DNA of 64,000 nucleotides from Citrus sinensis (lineage: Eukaryota > Streptophyta > Magnoliopsida > Sapindales > Rutaceae). The notes under the pieces were generated by a model. The model did not search any database and had not been told where the DNA came from. It saw nothing but the letters and a program-made list of their open reading frames with translations. Positions 3,255-62,900 of the stretch are shown one piece after another. A program made the position numbers and the translations under genes. Each line of letters begins with the position of its first letter. The first letter of the stretch is position 1. The stretch is taken from positions 32,331,001 to 32,395,000 of the forward strand of contig NC_068564.1 in the NCBI RefSeq assembly GCF_022201045.2, given 5' to 3'.

Positions 3255-4115
3255 AGGTAGCGTTTGTTTTTTCGTTTTAAATATGAATGGATCGAAATTT
3301 AGTTGAAATTTGAATAGTTATGAATATATAAATTTAAATGATTTTTTTTAAAAAAATATCTAAATATAAGTGTTAAGTTTTTTTATTTTTTTTAAAAAAA
3401 AATCTGAAATATGGTATTTTGACATATATAACCTCATCAATATTAGCAATACTTATATTTATTGGTTAAATATATGACAAGTTATAAATAAATTATTAGA
3501 TTAGTAAAAAAAAATTAATAATTTTTACTTTAACAAATCATAAAAAATAAAATATATATCAAACAAACATATTTTTTACATTGATATAGATACTTATAAT
3601 GTTATTTTTAGTATATTATATTATTTTTTTCTCATTAATCACATAAGTCAATCAATAATTGTTTAATCATTTGAATTAAAATTAGTGTATTAAATAAAAT
3701 TTAAAATCTATTATAAAAATAGTAAATATAAATACAGAGATATGGGCTTATTATAAAATACATTCACATAATGTTCTGTTCTGTTTAAAATTCTCATTCA
3801 CAAAATTCACCAAAAAAAAAGAGAATAATAGTTGAATACACGTACAACAAAAAGGGATAAATAAAAAATGATAAAAGGACAATTTGTATAATAGAAAATA
3901 AATTTATTTAGTAGGAGTATTAATGAGAAAGAATATTAAATTTCTATTTAAATATTTTGTCATTCAAATAAAAGTCAGAATATTTATTTTTTTTCATTCA
4001 GACTTAAACATCTTATAATTAGACATAAGTGATAAAAAAATAAATAAAATAAAAAATATAAATGTCTCAACATAATTAAGATTCAGACTTCAGACAAAAA
4101 ACAAATAACCCCTAA
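3255..4115. mobile_element. Foldback MITE-like element, about 860 bp (copy 1)
   Basis: The left end reads GGTAGCGTTTGTTTTTTC. The right end, reverse-complemented, reads TAGGGGTTATTTGTTTTTTG, giving terminal inverted repeats. The interior is very AT-rich with no coding capacity. Part of it (about 3600-3770) is clearly similar to the reverse complement of about 55720-55880, so a second copy of the family lies at 55.4-56.2 kb in opposite orientation. Target-site duplications are not convincing, so the superfamily (hAT-like by its ends) is tentative. Confidence 0.55.
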
Positions 4116-5772: not shown

Positions 5773-6458
5773 GGATAAAAACTTATTTAGTCCATATATT
5801 TTAATATTAGTATTTGTTTAGTTTTTATTTTTTTAAAAATGTCTCGAAATATCCTTGCCGTTAAAGTATTGATACCCCTAACGTTATTTTTTATTTCTTT
5901 TAACTTATTTTTACAATATTACCCTTTTATAATAATTTTTTTGTTTAGACATTAATAAAAAGAAAATAATTAAATTAGCAATTTCACCCTAGAAAATAAA
6001 AAAAATTATATTAATTTTTTTGCAAGCACCATTTGCACACTTCGTAGTTTGCATACAAATTTTGATAATTAAAAATTAATATTTTTATTTTTTAGGGTTA
6101 AATTGGTAATTTAATTATTTTCTTTTTATTAATGTCCAAACAAAAAAATTATTATAAAAGGGTAATATTGTAAAAGTAATCCAAAAGAAATAAAAAGTAA
6201 TAATTTAATTTTTGACAATTAAAAATTAATATAATTTTTTAGGGTTAAATTGGTAATTTAATTATTTTCTTTTTATTAATGTCCAAATAAAAAAATTATT
6301 ATGAAAGGGTAATATTGTAAAAGTAAGCCAAAAGAAATAAAAAGTAACGGTAGGGGTATCAATACTTTAACGGTAGGGATGTTTCGAGGCATTTTTAAAA
6401 ATATAGGGACTAAATGTATACTAATCTTAAAATATAGGGACTAAATGAGCTTTTACCC
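5773..6458. mobile_element. Mutator-like foldback element, 686 bp, long inverted repeats
   Basis: The ends read GGATAAAAACTTATTTAGTC and, reverse-complemented from the right, GGGTAAAAGCTCATTTAGTC. The two arms stay similar for roughly 200 bp, so the whole element can fold on itself. The flanks ATTAAATC (left) and ATTAAACC (right) look like an 8-9 bp target-site duplication, which fits Mutator-type transposition. The right arm contains an internal direct duplication: the stretch ending in the G-G-G-T-A-A-T-A-T-T-G motif occurs near 6160 and again near 6310. There are no transposase frames. A shorter relative lies at 49367-49784. Confidence 0.65.
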
Positions 6459-6950
6459 CATTAAACCACGCTCTCTGAGGTCGCGCGTGTTTCAAACAGC
6501 CCTTGTTATTGGAATAATATATTCAAGGGATAATTATCAGGAATGAAAGAAATCTCTGATGATAGTGCAGTTTTTTAGTTAATCAATAATTGTAGGCGAA
6601 TAAAAAATTGAAAATAATTTTACCTTCGTTGGTTACCTTTTATGATCTCTCAATAGAATGTTTTTTTTCTAAGTTTTAATCTCAAAAAGTCTAACCCCTT
6701 TACCTTTATTGGTTATCTTTTTATAACATTCCTTTGAATCCGGCCTTTCCTACAATCCACGTCTATCACTTCCCTCAACTCAAGGAAGTGGGTGCTTGAT
6801 TATCGTAATTGTGGCTGAGTGGACTTCGTGCCTTGATTTTCGAGCAGGAGTGTGCGTCTTGTCAACCGCCATTGACCGTGTCTACCCATTTCAACCTCTA
6901 GCAGGAATGGTCTTAAGCTCCTAGTAGGAGGCCGGCAACCGCTGTGGTCT

Positions 6951-7148
6951 CGTGGAGGGTGCATTCACAAACGAGCAAAATATTTCTGTTCGTGGAAACC
7001 TGCTATTAGACATCTACTCATCTACTCCATTATAAGGAGGCTGGCTCATCGTGGAGGGTGCATTCGTGAACAAGCAAAATATTCCTGTTCGTGGACACCT
7101 GCTACCAGACATCTGCTCATCTGCTCCATTATAAGGAAACTAACTCAT
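6951..7148. repeat. Tandem duplication, two copies of about 99 bp
   Basis: Copy 1 (6951-7049) and copy 2 (7050-7148) both open with CGTGGAGGGTGCATTC and run through a shared ATTATAAGGA block. They differ at scattered positions. The surrounding 6720-7190 is more GC-rich than its neighbours and may be a remnant of a larger repeat, but no terminal structure was found. Confidence 0.7.
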
Positions 7149-7265
7149 CGTCCAGGGCATGGCTGGTCTTGTTGAAGTATATCCCTCAAAAAATACTTAC
7201 CACCATTATATATTATAATATCGTCAAATTTTTATTATGTTTTTTTTTCAAGTTGTTATATATTA

Positions 7266-10735: not shown

Positions 10736-13700
10736 TTAATCAATGGCAATGATGAGAAAACCAACAGAGACATACATGAGAAAGACAGGGTAGAGGGCGA
10801 GGGCTTTTCTTCTGGGGTTCACGGCAGAACTCATGAAAGGATAGGCAGCCCATGAGCTCCAAGCCAGTGTCACACACACTACAATCACTTTCACTAACAC
10901 GTTGTCCTTCAACATGCATATTAAGGCTCCAATATCAAGAGGAAATAGACAATAACCCAGCAGACTCAGACTCTGAAAGAAAATTATGTGTCCACCCTGA
11001 AACAATGTAAATACTCACCCAAGTCAATCTATACTTAATCACATATGCAGGCTTTCAAATTTAAAGATTTTAACGTAATGGGTATTCAGTGTTCACCCTG
11101 AAAAAATGTTAATGTTCACCCAAGTCAATGTATACTCAATCACATATGCAGGCTTTCAAATTTAAAGATTACAATGTAATGGCTATTCAGTGTTTTTGAG
11201 TTTCTCTTGTACACGTAGGAATAATGAGTTGATTTAAATCCAATAACTTGCAGCATCTAAAAGGAAGCAAATTGGTAAGAGAGAGAGTGCCATGCCCACA
11301 ACAGACACAGAGAAGGGAGGGGGGGCAGTAGAGAGAGAGAGTATTACCAGAAGTAGTACATTCAGGGTCAAGATCACAGCACCAGCAGCAAGTAGTGCAA
11401 ATGCAACAGCGAATACCTCAGACTAGAAGAAAAGTAGGCAAAATTAGAAACTCTGTCCGCAGAAAAACAACTGATTGTTCTAAATGAATGAAATTTCATG
11501 ATCTGTACTTCAACAGAAGAAATGATCATCACATAGAGAGAAGAACACTTTGAAATAGGAAACTCGCCACCATAAGCTGACAAAAATTCGGACATCTATA
11601 TACGAATACATGTCAACCTAAAAAGTAAGACCCCTACCATATAGTGTGGCCTATGACAATATTCGTTCGTAGATAAGGGCAAGGGTGTTGCTAATATCAT
11701 GCATTTCCTATATAACAAAAATCAACAGAAATAAAACTGTAGGAACCACAAAGTCCATATGTACAAATGGATGTGAAATCTTGGCATGCAATGCACTTAT
11801 GTTTTGATGCAGGCCAGTTTGAGGGAGACACTGGCTCATGAAGGTAATTCAATCAGATATAAATGCAGTCATGGAATATCTGGATTCCTTTTACGTGGTT
11901 CTTGTCAACAGTACAGTAGTGCAGTTACATTACTATTTATCTTCTAGGACTTGAGTGCATTTATTTATTTTTTAAAAATCTTTTTCTGCTTGTTTAATTT
12001 TATTTTTAAGAGATAATCCTGCATGCTACCTGTGTACTTGGATTGCACTCCCTTCATATTTCAAAATATAAAAATCCCCGCAATGTTGGCAAACAAGCAT
12101 TGACCAGAAATTTACTAAAATCAACCAAAAGCTTGACACGAGGTCAGAAGCAGGAAGCTGGAAGACCCAAGGACTTTAGTCATCCAGTATTTCTATCTTA
12201 CAAGCAACTCCTACGATGCCACTGGTGACTTATTAATTTTGACTTTAGTAGAGTAATGCATAAATGGTTATGACATAATATAAGCTGAATAAAGACACCA
12301 AACAGAGAATATAATGGAGTTAGTGATACAGCAGAAGATTCCTCTGATAATACAAAATGTATTAGGGGAACATACAACTGAGCAAGGCCAGACCTCTGGT
12401 TAAGATATTGCTATTGCATAGTATATATCATAACTGATTTCTAGGTTATGCTGGAAAAAAGTACCTCATTCAACGGAGATGAGACCAACATATTACCAGA
12501 GTGAGCAAAAAAATAGACAAAAACAAATAATTAAGAGGGTCCAGCCAAGTAAACTTCTACCGTACATTATACTATTCCAAATCATAATTAGCACAATAGC
12601 TACAGTTGAATTTGCAAAAAGCGAAAGAAAGAGGGAGAGCAGGAGAGAGAAAGATGAAACACTGACTCAATCTGATTAAGCCTCAACGGGAAAAGCCATA
12701 TCATACAACTTTGTCTCATGCCATAGGACTGCTTTAGGAACTGGGATTGAAACGAGACAGGTAAATATTAGCTGCAAATTGGACACATAGCTGCTTTGTC
12801 ATTTAGAGGTAAAATTGAGATCCTCCTGACCAATATTTTTTGCTTAAGCAAATATCATCCTGAAGACATCTTCGAATCATAAACTTGGAGCTATACAAAT
12901 CAAGACCATGTCTCTCAAAGGAAATATTAATGATGAAATCAGTTAAATTCATCCATTAATAAGTTTTAACACATTATGCGGTCACCTCACTCCTTATAGT
13001 TACACTGTTTGATGCTTTTACATATAATTAAACTACTGAAGCCAAAATATTTTGTCATCTGGTTCTGATTCAGTTTATTTTTACCAGGACTTAAGTATCA
13101 ACCTTGACCAAAATGCAAAACCCACTTTTTCATTCTTTCATTTCGACATAAACTAAATACTGGTATCACAATGTAAAGCCAGCCTGAAGCATGGAATAGC
13201 AAAAAAGCTTCCGAACAAAAGTTACATAATAGGTGAAACGTATTGTCTCAATCAAGCTGTCTCAAGAATAGGATGAAACCTAACTATACCAGCCACAATG
13301 TCCACAGCCATCAACTTAAAGTCATCCAAATCTTTCGAATAATACAATCGCAAGTTATAATCATACAAAGAGTGATAACCCAAACCGATCACAAAATGCA
13401 GATGATCATTTCCTATACTAGCCGCACTGTTACATGTTAATTGCTGCATAAACTGAAACTGCCTACTAAACAGCATCTATGCTATTGTAAAACGAAGGCT
13501 TAGACAACAGAAAAGATATCGATAGGACTAAAATGCAAAAGATAGAAAGCTGACCTTCTTGACAGAGGCTGACCATGAAAGAGTGAGTCCCAAAAACACT
13601 ATAAAGAAAAAGGGACCCCACAGATCCCAATCTCTAAGCGCCTTGCCGGGGTCTTCCCTGTATGGATTCGGAAACACAACGAGCTTCAAATTACTCACAA

Positions 13701-22979: not shown

Positions 22980-24600
22980 ATAAAGGTAATAATTGACAAA
23001 GAGTTTACACCATTACGTTTATTCTTTTGATATAGATTTTGTTGTAATTCACAAATTCAATCGAATTTTGGATATTGATTGTTGAAATTTAATTATCTGT
23101 TTTTTTTTTTTTATTATTGTTATTATTTACTCGAGGGAGATAAATTTTACATTGGGAGTGAAGCAATCATTTCCTTTTAGCATCTTATTGTTATCCCCAA
23201 ATACATGTTCTGTTGGGCATCTCTTCCGCTTTTTGCCACCAAAGCCCACATGCTTCATGTTGAACTCTTCTTAGGGTCGGGATAGTAATTATATAATTTT
23301 AAAAATAATTGTTGTTAGTTATACTAATAAATAATTAGTCGTGAAAAAAATCAATTAAATGTTCAATAAAATTTATTCTTAAAAAGTGTCATGAGATTTA
23401 AAAATAACGGTATGTGTTTGGTAAATCTTATTATTAAACTACTGTAAGAATATAATTGACTGAATTAGACATAATATTAAATAAAATTTATTTAAACTGT
23501 TATAAAAATGTATATAAAATATTTTTATTTTGTAAATACAATAATTGATAACTAAAATAAATATTTTTTTTTATCTCAATATAATTGGTAACAGTAAAAT
23601 ATATTTAAAGTTAGTAATTTTATTTGTTAATTAATAAGGATTTATATTTTTATAATATTTATGAGGATATACAAGGAATTATATTAAATATAAAAGTGAT
23701 TCTCAAAATTAGATTTTAAAAAGGTATTTCTTCCTTACTTTTCAAAACATGCTGTAAAATATGATGATTTTACTAAAAGTGGTTTCTTAACAAATTTACC
23801 AAATACTAAAATTAACTTTTAATTTTTCAAGTTCATTTTTAAGCCTCCTAAAAGCAACCCTAAACGGGCACTTAATAGCAAATAAAATTTCTCAAACCCA
23901 TGAGTTAGCCATTTAGGTCCTTAATGAGCTATAATAAAATCAGCTTTTAATTTTTTAAAATCATTTTTGAGTCTCCTAAAAGCAACCCTAAACAAGTACT
24001 TAATAGTAAATAAAGTTTCTCAAATCCATGATTTAGCCATCAAGGTCCTTAGTGAGCTACAAGAAAATTTTCCTTTTAATCTTTTTCAGATGAAAAATAT
24101 AAACAAATTTTATTGTTTTTCAATTATTAATTTTATCATATTTATAATAATAGAATTAACTTGGGGTGCAAGAATGTTTTTTTAAAAAAAAACTTTTGAG
24201 TATAAGAACAAAAAAAGAGAAATTAAAAATTAAAAAAGAAATCCACGTGGACCAAGCGGGAACCCTAGAATCCCTCGAATAGCCAACGAAAGCCACCCGC
24301 GGGTCCAGCAGTCAGGAGAGCCCATGTGAATCCAAGCCACCGATTCCAGGACATAACCGTAAATTCAGTAATTCACTTGTGATCTTTCTCACCCGTCAGT
24401 GACTGTACTGCCGATGACGGACCAATAAATACCTCTACACAATAAACATTCCCGGTTAATGAATATCCACGTGTCAGCTGTCAACGTCAATCAGCTGTGA
24501 CCTAATCGCTGCCTACGCCAAGCCCCTTGACCTTCGCCCCGGCCTTGGTGAGAAAAAAAGGGAAAAAATACACTGCCAGTGCAAAATATCTTTTTCTCGC
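22980..24600. other. Intergenic DNA between the GT31 and VDAC genes
   Basis: AT-rich with no gene. 23400-23880 contains GTGTTTGGTAAA and, further right, TTTACCAAATACT in inverted orientation, so it is probably a degraded MITE. A 128-bp tandem duplication follows (separate entry). 24240-24600 is GC-richer and is probably the VDAC promoter. Confidence 0.5.
23815..24070. repeat. Tandem duplication with a 128-bp period
   Basis: CTCCTAAAAGCAACCCTAAA occurs at about 23845 and again at 23973, and the match continues through (A/G)TAAA(A/G)TTTCTCAAA and AGCCAT to the region of AGGTCCTTA. About one base in ten differs. Confidence 0.7.
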
Positions 24601-57678: not shown

Positions 57679-58810
57679 TTCAATTTCTATTGCTTATCTC
57701 TCTACAGCCGCCAAGCACTTTGATATTTGTGAGCTGGTTCTGCATGCAACTTGCGCTACATACACTCTGTAAACAAAAGTACTGTCATTCCAGAGTCCAA
57801 GAGGATTCATTGATTAAGAAAATATATATAATGATAATTATGAACTTTTTCTATACAAATTGATGATGATTCAATGTATTATTGCCTTTGGTTGAATGGC
57901 TTTCACATGGCCCATTTTATTAATTATATCAAATTTGTATTTTTATCAAGAAATAGTGTGTTTACACATCAATTTACATAAAAATCTATGTCCCTATCAT
58001 TATTCTATTAAAAATAGAGAAACCCAAAGGATCACTTTCTCCTATTGATGATAGAGTTATTGATGACGTATCGAGAAATAGCAAAATTTGTTCTACATTT
58101 CCCGGTCATCAATTAATTAACCAATGCATTAATTTGTTTCACGATTATCTGACAAATATAGAATGATAACTTTGTTACACAATTCTTGAACCCGCGATCT
58201 ATGTCTTAAATTCGCGGGTCGGTAATATCGGCTCCTAATCATGGAAGTGACCAAAACGGCCATGTGAATATGATTTAAAAATCCAACTAAAATGAAATGG
58301 ACACTTACGAAATATGATTAGCTGCAATATCGGTGTTGATATGGCCATAAAAAAAAATTTTATCATTAATTTTCAGGTCGCCATATTTAAATGGCTATTC
58401 AAGTTTAAATCTTAGAGAAAGTAAGGATCAAAAATAGATCTGGGCTTTATCGACCACTCTAATTTTGTTTTTCCTTTTTTTAATAAGAACATCTAACGTT
58501 GCCATTAGACTATCCATTTAGCAGCAGTCCAATAGTGGACCTATGCCCAGTGCCCTTAACATTGTTGAGAGAACTATTCAAATCGTCCTGGGAGCTCTTT
58601 CTCTTTTCGATGAAAAAATGAAATAAAAGGAGACTTATTTTCAATGTTGAACTGATGAACCAGCCTCGGTAAATTTATGAATATTATTGAAAATTTATAT
58701 ATCTAGAGGTCTTGTAGACATCAAATTGTAATACATCTATAAATTTTAACAATTAAATAAAACATACAACAAACATTAATATTCTCAAATCAGTCATCAC
58801 TTTTTTTTTT
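57679..58810. other. Upstream region of the CASP-like gene
   Basis: Contains the CASP-like promoter and AT-rich intergenic DNA. Nothing else recognised. It ends in a run of ten T residues (58801-58810), part of the apparent target site of the next element. Confidence 0.5.
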
Positions 58811-58925
58811 GGGAAATTTACACTAATAACCATAAAAATTTTAGTTTTTTTCATCTTAACCCCTCAAACAAATTTCTATCAACATTAGCCATAAAAGAAC
58901 CGTTGAGACCAAATTACCCTTCTCT

Positions 58926-59302
58926 CTCATCTCCCTTTCCTCTTCCTCTTGCCTTCTTCTCTCCAGTTCTCTATTAATTTCAACATCCACCTCTTTCTTC
59001 TTCTTCTCTCTCCTATAATCCTCGTAATCGTTCGGTCTAGCGGGGTCGTGCTCCTCGATTACGGTCGAAGTCACGTCGACCAATGCCGGTTGCGGCAGCG
59101 CTACCACGTCGTCGGGGGAAGGTGCGATTGCAGGTGAGGAATGGGGTCTAGTCGGGAGAGAATTTTGGGTGGTTTTGGGTTTGGATTGGGGCTTGAGGAT
59201 GGTTTGTGGTGGCGCGAAAATTGACCAGACAGTGGTGGTTGTGTTGGTGGGTTTGTCCTCATCGGAGGGTGGAGGTAGGTATCCGTACAGCCCGCCTAGC
59301 AT
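58926..59302 (-). pseudogene. Captured N-terminal fragment of a DRT111 / splicing factor 45-like gene
   Basis: The minus-strand frame begins MLGGLYGYLPPPSDEDKP and contains FAPPQTILKPQ, then QPALVDVTSTVIEEHDPARP, then a Lys/Glu/Arg-rich coiled-coil-like stretch. These are, in order, recognisable parts of the N-terminal region of plant DRT111 (SPF45-like splicing factor). The G-patch and RRM domains that follow in the real gene are absent. Here the frame runs into the terminal inverted repeat and stops at 58856. The part between VWS and FAPPQT seems shorter than in the parent family, as if a small internal deletion occurred. The sequence upstream of the ATG (59303 to about 59430) is AT/CT-rich and may be captured 5' UTR. 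There is no promoter evidence. A functional product is unlikely; an expressed fragment is possible. Confidence 0.7.
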
Positions 59303-59513
59303 TTCGCAACGTGGCTTTTGATGGAAAATCCCGGGGAATTTGAATTCCGAAATTGGATTTTAGAGAATTAAAAAGCTGATTTTGTTTTGTTGTTTGGGTT
59401 GTCTGATGAGATTCGATCTGAGGTAGAAGAAGATATTACATACGAATAAGAAGAGACGAACAAAGACGAAAGGACTGGCGAAAACAAACAAATACTGAGG
59501 TAGAAGAAGGCAA

Positions 59514-59825
59514 CCTGTCGCACGAAGCTTGGTGCGACAGGTGCCTGTCGCACGAAGCTTGGTGCGACAGGTGCCTGTCGCACGAAGCTTGGTGCGACAG
59601 GTGCCTGTCGCACGAAGCTTGGTGCGACAGGTGCCTGTCGCACCAAGGCATGGTGCGACAGGTGCCTGTCGCACCAAGGCATGGTGCGACAGGTTGCCTG
59701 TCGCACCAAAGTTTGGTGCGACAGGTGCCTGTCGCACCAAGGCATGGTGCGACAGGTGCCTGTCGCACCAAAGCTTAGTGCGACAGGTGCCTGTCGCACC
59801 AAGACTTGGGCTTGTCGCACCAAGT
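59514..59825. repeat. Array of 30-32 bp palindromic units, nine full and one degenerate
   Basis: Each unit reads CCTGTCGCAC(C/G), a 6-8 base centre, then GGTGCGACAGG and TG (or TTG). Units 1-4 start at 59514, 59544, 59574 and 59604; each is 30 bp and they are identical, with GAAGCTT at the centre. Units 5-9 start at 59634, 59665, 59697, 59728 and 59759; they are 31-32 bp and vary at the centre. A broken tenth unit ends near 59825. Every unit is a hairpin, and neighbouring arms also pair across the TG spacer. Several reading frames on both strands are open across the array purely because of its period. Confidence 0.95.
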
Positions 59826-59954
59826 TTCTTTTCGTTTGTAAAGAAGGGTAATTTGGGGAGAAAAGCGTGTATTTGGCTAATGTTGATAGAAAAAAGTTGA
59901 GAGGGTTAATTCGAAAAATAGTAAAAATTTTATGGTTATTTTCGTAAATTTCCC

Positions 59955-62900
59955 TTTTTTTTTTATAATATTGCTACTTTCCTTTTGAATAATATTAAAA
60001 AGCATTAACTGTGTTTAATTATGTAAATAATATTGTTTGGATTAGATTAGATTTGGCCCCATCCCAAGGGGCTGACCAATTCATGATGGTCATTAAATCT
60101 TCAATGACTTACCCATATGGTTAGTTGGTCTACCCAACTGCCTCTTTAAATACAGTTGCACTCGCTAACTTTAATTTCTTGAGTTTTCGAAATGTTATTC
60201 CACCAATTGTTACGGGAGATTGGATTCTCTGAATGTGTGGGTAAAGGTCTTTGTATGTTCAGTGTTCGACTGTCATGGCCGTATTGCCATTGCATTGAAT
60301 AAAGGTGTTTCTATGCTGTCAGTGAATAATATGCTAGCTGGCTAATGGCTATAGCTGCAAGCCTGCAACCCTTTCTTCCACTCTACTAACTCGGTACATA
60401 TATATATTCCTAGATTCTTCTACTGTAGTAGTAATGCTACAACATTTGTTTTTTCCAATTATCGACATGGATTTTAGTTCCAATTATGGGTAGGGATGTC
60501 AATTGTGCCTGCAAATCTATCAATCCGTCTAGATTTGTTTGTCAAAATTCATCCGCAGTGGATAATTTTACGGGTTGTGGGTGAGTTTGGTATTTCAAAT
60601 TGAAATGCGCACTTGGATACGGGTGGGTTTGATATTAACTTAATATCCGGCGGATACCTGTATGGATATCCGCCAGATCCATAATATTTATTTAAATATT
60701 TTTAATTTATTTTAAATTAAATTAAAAATATTTAAATCTAAAAAATATATAAAGAAAATAATGCAATTATGCAAAGTGCCAAATAACATAATAGCAGACT
60801 TCATCCAAAGATGTTGGAGGCTTTAATGTGTGCTCAAAATTGGTTGTGTGCTCAACTTAATGGTATGAAAATACATTTTTACTTAAATAGAATATAATAT
60901 CTATTATACATTACAAACTTATAATCATCTATCTTTTTTCTTGATATACTTGTTACTTGTAGATGTATAATCTTTTAATAAAGTAGGAAATAACAAATTC
61001 TCCAAAAATGAATATATTGTTGATGAGGTAAGAAACTAAGTTTATTTACCTTAATTAATGGATTATTATATATACTTATTATATTTTTTATGGACTATTT
61101 TTCTTTAACTTAATGCATGAATTATTTCATTATTATAATTTTTTTCTTCAGATTAATATTTGAAAAATATTATTATTTGGAAAATATTAATCTTAATTAT
61201 TATTGTAGGCATCATGTTAGATCGATGCTAATGGTGGTGAATAAAATGAAGATCTTTTCTTGGAGTTTGTGTTGAATAATAATATGAAATGTAATTATTA
61301 TTTTTAGATATTAGTTTGTGATTTTTTTTAATGGATTTGTGTAATTTACACTTAAAATTGAGAATTCGTGTTAGATTGATGTTAAAATTTTAATTTTTCA
61401 TTTACATTGGTTAAATTAAAATTGAGTATGTTATGTAGAATTTGAGGTTATTATTATAAATTTATATGTTGAATATTTGTTATTTTAAATGTAAAAACTC
61501 GCAAAAAATCCGCTGGATACCATTGCGGGTTTGGTAATTGTCAAAACCCATAGCAAGTAGGTTTTCTTTAAAAAATTAAAACCCGCTTACATTTTTTTTA
61601 TCAATTCAACCGATTATAATATGTCATATTAGTTTGTATAATAATCTTTTAATAAATACAAATATATTAACTGAGACTTTTTTAAGTAAATTTTAGAAAT
61701 ATGACGGTGCATTTGACTCAATCCTAAGGGGTGAAGGGACATTAACCCTTTCTATATTGATTTATCTCATAAATTTAAAGTTCTAACATCTCAACCGCTT
61801 AATGAATATGCAACAAATATAGTACAGAAGTAATTTATTGAAACGGTACAAAAATTAGTAAAAAGAAAACAAAAAGTAAAGATCTATTGAAAATTCTAAC
61901 TCATGATGGATATCATATAATAAAAGATCAACAGTAACTGGCCCAAATTAAAGCCTAAACTCGAATCGAGTTTCTAATTTCCAGTAAGAGGCTCGTGAGT
62001 GGTAACAAACCTAGATTTTTTGAGTATATCCACTGTCATATCTATACACACACAATGTCCATCTTATAGACTGAAAGGCCCAGTTGTAGAGAAAACATTG
62101 GAATAAAAAAATTACTGTTAATTTTGTTATGACCCAATTTAAGTACTATTGTTACTGGCACGTAAACCAGACAAAATTTAATACGATCCGATTACCCGAT
62201 ATAAAAATGATACAAACAAATGGGTATGAGTCATCAAATTTGACAAGATTATTAAATGGACTGAGTTCGGGTTTACACAATTTTTTTCATGTCGGGTTAG
62301 GGTTAAAGTTCTTAACCTATTTATCCGAACAATGACACGATTATATTTTCTATTTCAAATTAATTTTTAGATTCTTTTCATTAAAACTCAAATATTGGGC
62401 ACGATTCTCTTTTTTTAATTTTTTCGGGGAAGATGGATGTATACATAGTGTTTTATTTATAAAATTTGATATAAATTTAAAACTTTAATAGTGTAAGTGT
62501 GTAAAATATTGATACACATGTATATTTATGATATCGATATGTAATATTATTTATATATATATAATTTAAACTTTAAATAGTGTAAATGTGTAATATGTTG
62601 GGGTGTATGTGTTTAACACTTGTTAAATATTTAGATATCAAACAGGTTATTGGGTGACCCATTTATCTTTCGTGCCGAGTTTAAGTCTCAATATTTTAAC
62701 ACAATTATTCAATGGGTCGTGTTTGGGCCGACTTAAATTTGACACGATACGAACACGAGCCGGTGACCCATTTTGCCAACTCTACTACCACACTTAATAA
62801 TTTGAAGTTTTTAAAGTTCTTTAACTAACATAATACGCAGTTAAGGATTCAAGTAATTTGATTTTTTTTTTGTTTAAATATATAACGCGGAAATATATAC

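Follow-up and report, generated by a model that had tools for sequence, protein, structure and literature searches.

The 1,144-bp element at positions 58811-59954 of the window, the 64,000-nt stretch of Citrus sinensis DNA that was analysed, is a non-autonomous Mutator-like element (MULE) of the Pack-MULE type. It carries a host gene fragment similar to DRT111/SPF45 and an array of short palindromes. The MULE family as a whole has this array as a regular subterminal component, and it is nothing peculiar to the DRT111-bearing element. We give about an even chance to the reading that the array, retained in Pack-MULEs, is a putative anti-silencing target of the VANC type.

The features of the element are listed in Table 1. 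Its length is covered entirely by the ends, the DRT111 piece, filler, the array, and a short right flank; with the whole 1,144 bp accounted for, there is no transposase sequence inside it. The inverted ends, which the sequence-only reading had put at about 115 bp, align by BLAST over 113 nt and are ~77% alike. Positions 58811-58891 pair with 59874-59954 (81 nt, 80% complementary). The flanks lie in a run of T and are ambiguous alone, and the boundary is fixed by the 9-bp flanks of other copies.

Table 1. Features of the window element and its flanks, in positions of the window.
Feature	Position	Strand	Remark
Left 9-bp target site duplication, TTTTTTTTT	58802..58810	.	9-bp rule from other copies; within T run
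Left terminal inverted repeat, starting GGGAAATTTAC	58811..58923	+	113 nt aligned at 77% with right end
Open frame of 148 aa, stop included	58856..59302	-	coordinates from ATG offset
Captured DRT111/SPF45-like piece, 5'UTR and start of CDS	58921..59497	-	match to resident L039
15-nt repeat of DRT111 5'UTR between captured piece and array	59495..59509	+	second copy at 59418-59432
Palindromic array, ~10 units of 30-32 bp, alternating half-sites CCTGTCGCACCA	59514..59809	.	tandem period 31
Additional single half-site beyond the array	59811-59822		half-site search
Right terminal inverted repeat	59842..59954	-	matches transposase-gene side of 7.3-kb relative
Right 9-bp target site duplication, TTTTTTTTT	59955..59963	.	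identical to left flank

A DNA search was performed on the genome of the window (299.7 Mb, 11 contigs), and 38 loci were examined. They are 36 DRT111-bearing loci, the parent gene (L039), and an array locus without DRT111 (L045). The 36 loci correspond to 39 protein-search matches minus the parent gene and minus two second pieces of one element. Both ends pair in 32 of the 38 loci. No end pair was observed in L036, L039, L041, L042, L043, and L045, the last because the examined stretch began inside the element. Identical 9-bp flanks are present in 29 of the 32 delimited copies, and the flanks of the other three have two or three mismatches. The 9-bp target site duplication of Mutator-like elements is thus seen across the delimited copies, and the ends are an insertion boundary, as had been proposed. 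All 32 copies contain DRT111 sequence, which is split or partial in L038, L040, and L044, and all contain at least two half-sites of the array. The host fragment, the absence of transposase, the resident parent, and the many copies sharing both ends agree with the Pack-MULE nature read from the letters of the window.

The captured piece (577 bp, element positions 111-687) shows 88% identity over 623 columns to the parent DRT111 gene, which is still resident in the genome on contig C2 and whose frame encodes a G-patch domain. This match supports the earlier assignment of a DRT111/SPF45-like fragment to the minus strand. The interval 58926-59302 claimed for it lies inside the piece, but the piece is longer and includes ~195 bp of 5'UTR, reaching 59497. 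At ~59220/59221, 45 bp of the parent are absent; this gap is counted in the 623 columns. The 45-bp loss is common to the copies, most of which align to the window piece without a gap, with few gaps overall. The shared gap suggests one capture followed by amplification, and such a history is likely. The 15-nt 5'UTR repeat at the junction of piece and array occurs twice in 29 of the 32 delimited copies. It looks like template-switch filler, and the DRT111 piece probably entered the element through repair synthesis in which the template was switched.

In the 148-aa frame, 128 aa resemble the N-terminus of DRT111 and the remaining ~20 aa come from the left end. Of 28 copies, 22 retain a frame of 137-148 aa, among them L025, which has no ATG, and six have a broken frame; the survey left out L038, L040, and L044, and L022 had no ATG match. 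In comparison with the parent, the frame has a dN/dS ratio of 0.30-0.77 in 25 of 28 copies, with frameshift noise in L014 and L032 and three copies skipped for indels. Pooled over comparisons between copies, the ratio is 0.69. Some copies are rearranged. L040 (201-3005) is interrupted by an insertion of ~1.85 kb in the captured piece. L041, L042, L043, and L044 have a shorter DRT111 piece, and L044 has an extra, separate small piece of 5'UTR, which is a different internal rearrangement.

The array of short palindromes noticed in the letters is far from random. The tandem repeat search returned a period of 31 with 9.6 copies (score 466). Allowing two mismatches, the half-site occurs 21 times in the window, and 20 of these sites fall within 59514-59822, against a mean of 1.00 and a maximum of 5 in shuffled windows. 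At the same threshold, the palindrome matches one strand of the genome 210 times and the other 207 times, and the reversed control matches neither. In five delimited elements, from loci selected for the presence of the array, 112 half-sites are found in 10,658 bp inside the elements versus 2 in 39,097 bp outside. The orientation of half-sites alternates, with gaps of 8-9 between facing sites and 6-7 between back-to-back sites. Of 202 spacings between sites of the same orientation, 179 are 30-32 bp, which corresponds to about three helical turns, and 19 are 21 bp. CC before and CAA after the core are also conserved, and the loop centers are variable; the conservation of the core is partly built in by the search (at most one mismatch in 8). 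In a comparison of 15 arrays excluding close kin, loops were identical in 113 of 390 pairs within arrays versus 157 of 4,863 pairs between arrays, and none of 500 shuffles was as high. Thus, arrays homogenize within copies while half-sites stay common to the family. The number of half-sites ranges from 4 to 20 among 14 copies that are at least 98.9% identical in their DRT111 part.

The minus-strand RNA of the array is predicted to fold at -243.3 kcal/mol versus -125.5 for 100 shuffles (z -20), and the loops are palindromic themselves (0.69 versus 0.25 shuffled). These features are consistent with the array being a source of hairpin RNA. Transcripts reading through from the right end would then join the hairpins to sense sequence of DRT111 and give small RNAs against the parent or the family. 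Captured-sequence Pack-MULEs and Helitrons of maize are siRNA reservoirs acting on their donors, according to a review (PMC13317346). However, the array occurs without DRT111, and no inverted partner of the DRT111 piece is present within the window element. There is also an unmatched G on one arm in the first four units of the window copy (GAAGCTTG loops), indicating that pairing is not strictly maintained. Since a fold of this strength is expected of palindromes whatever their role, the hairpin idea is not favored over DNA binding; we regard it as quite improbable. Small RNAs from the array and anti-silencing would be compatible, as RNA-directed DNA methylation (RdDM) also targets such VANC-target regions (PMC10398659).

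The palindromes are not restricted to DRT111-bearing elements. Outside the DRT111 set and L045, 31 places with the palindrome were listed, and 19 of them were read. In all 19, none of which contains DRT111, a family end adjoins the array. On the evidence of these 19 loci, joint acquisition of the array and DRT111 is rejected. The array does lie beside the captured piece, as the sequence-only reading stated, but it is a family module and not a peculiarity of this element. Genome-wide, the left-end pattern matches one strand 109 times and the other 119 times, and its control has 0 and 0. Both ends and palindromes are present in 32 DRT111 loci, and other members carry other captured genes. One member (L081, 3426-5424) carries a cytochrome P450 fragment (E 1.2e-68), and its long frame starts in array sequence. 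Another (L079, 4011-5960) carries a PADRE-domain fragment (E 1.7e-12) beside the left array, and its frame also starts in array sequence. In the window element, the DRT111 piece is likewise sense and downstream relative to the array, so the array is 5' of the sense frame in three of three sequence-supported captures. An LRR-like capture in L077, L083, and L084 is a likeness by eye only, with no Pfam match. A sub-threshold RhoGAP match lies ahead of the P450 fragment in L081. The neighbor of the DRT111 copy in L034 (1142-2187, contig C3) is a 1,046-bp element with the same ends, other content, and 9-bp flanks GATTTTCCG.

The sequence at C3:18330245-18337517 is a probable autonomous member of the family. 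It is the one full-length 7.3-kb element that was read. It spans 7,273 bp with the flank AAAAATCAG on both sides, and its ends are 87-89% identical to those of the window element. The transposase frame, on the minus strand, has 888 codons (878 aa from the first Met) and matches MULE (E 3.4e-20) and DBD_Tnp_Mut (E 2.8e-09). On the plus strand, a DUF1985 (PF09331) frame at 753-1550 covers 140 of 141 profile positions (E 2.7e-19), and an Ulp1-type C48 frame, separate from it, lies at 3320-3961 (E 7.1e-22). Twelve half-sites at 491-683 stand directly before the DUF1985 frame, which starts at 753, and three at 6899-6930 stand directly before the minus-strand transposase frame, which ends at 6851. 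Four scattered half-sites with one mismatch elsewhere in the element are likely due to chance. Three loci, L062, L071, and L080, have ends with 99-100% identity to the right end of the 7,273-bp element, indicating that this element has close kin.

Quick change in copy number and homogenization within arrays are also typical of neutral tandem repeats. The array could be a neutral satellite that hitchhikes with a successful family, its palindrome being easily extruded and multiplying through slippage or unequal exchange. The half-site, however, is common to diverged family members despite variable loops, arrays stand ahead of the transposase frame as well as the DUF1985 frame in the 7.3-kb element, and no delimited DRT111 copy has fallen below two half-sites. 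A neutral origin is rather improbable.

Alternatively, the arrays could be a platform to which the transposase, or a different end-binding protein of the element, binds, and could serve transposition and not anti-silencing. Comparable subterminal repeats are known in other DNA transposons, such as the TnpA sites of En/Spm. The subterminal position beside the family end in all 19 read loci, the retention in all 32 delimited DRT111 copies, and the helical-turn spacing and dyad symmetry of half-sites are in line with this role. On the other hand, L034 and L037 have only two half-sites and both show clean 9-bp duplications, so a large platform appears unnecessary for transposition. In addition, a single half-site is left in the 1,046-bp neighbor, and the arrays of the 7.3-kb element are 300-500 bp from its ends. 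A transposition platform is considered unlikely.

The VANC-type reading is favored because a DUF1985 gene is present in the family, arrays stand before the gene frames, and arrays homogenize within copies. The citrus protein resembles VANC by its Pfam domain. Counting against this reading are the alternating orientation of half-sites, the 113-bp inverted ends, and the presence of only three half-sites in the right-hand array of the 7.3-kb element. The DUF1985 (VANC/KIU-type) protein encoded by the element would have the array as its cis target and, by binding there to the repeated half-sites, would lift host silencing from any array-bearing copy. Pack-MULEs would have lost the genes, retained the ends and the array, and stayed active through help in trans. 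In them, a host fragment like that of DRT111 would occupy the former place of the transposase gene, in the same direction and downstream of the array. More tentatively, and with somewhat less than an even chance, the Pack-MULEs of this family may parasitize anti-silencing, the array being a portable desilencing module upstream of any captured fragment, through which both the copy and its chimeric gene would be kept active in trans. Such a module would account for the array 5' of the captured frame in the DRT111, P450, and PADRE copies.

Pack-MULEs are usually viewed as sources of siRNA or as passive vehicles of genes. If gene-carrying copies do retain a docking array for an anti-silencing protein, captured genes would rely on a counter-defense system for their spread, and VANC-type control would be extended to MULEs with terminal inverted repeats (TIRs) and to palindromic motifs. 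The system is testable, with a defined 31-bp palindrome, 1 to 12 units in near-identical elements, and a nearby, probably autonomous relative.

The citrus elements share with the Pack-MULEs of rice, Arabidopsis, and maize Mutator-like ends, 9-bp duplications, a host gene fragment, the absence of transposase, and multiple copies. They differ in bearing a palindromic tandem array shared with a probable autonomous relative. A literature search, mostly without subscription papers, brought up no Pack-MULE reported to carry an array that is palindromic or of the VANC type.

The VANC proteins of Arabidopsis contain DUF1985; they bind rapidly evolving tandem arrays of motifs and lift silencing. Their targets are tandem repeats that vary, lie within introns and upstream of VANA, are gained or lost from one copy to another, and evolve jointly (PMC5735166). 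As in VANDAL21, the citrus family has a DUF1985 gene in the element and non-coding tandem motif arrays before the transposase gene, and the arrays vary and homogenize between copies. In contrast, VANC21 motifs share one orientation according to that paper, whereas citrus motifs alternate as palindromes. The candidate target array of citrus is also kept by gene-carrying non-autonomous copies, unlike in the VANDAL21/VANC system. VANC systems are described in non-TIR or degenerate-TIR MULEs, while the citrus ends are 113-bp TIRs at ~77%. Some VANDAL-clade elements are reported to have TIRs (PMC6446971).

KIU/Kaonashi MULEs also have DUF1985 and Ulp1-type C48 frames on one strand and the MULE transposase on the other. 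KIU genes are VANC genes with an Ulp1 domain and act on motifs in the non-coding parts of their own kin, and these MULEs are described as non-TIR, as given in the review (PMC13317346); the citrus domains are known as separate frames. CitMule of Citrus clementina resembles the 7.3-kb element in being Mutator-like and ~7 kb with 9-bp duplications, but it is described with a FAR1 domain (PMC4334395). Its printed motif CTCATCTCGCTGCTCTCT has eight exact and three one-mismatch places in the genome, none of them among the listed places of the window element's family, and CitMule is ruled out as the autonomous partner. The motif place at C3:6790528 has a position near that of CitMule_1, which lies at 6785326 on clementine chromosome 3. 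Elsewhere in the window, two-copy tandem duplications of 99-147 bp are present at 6060-6347, 6950-7151, 10988-11194, and 23803-24068.
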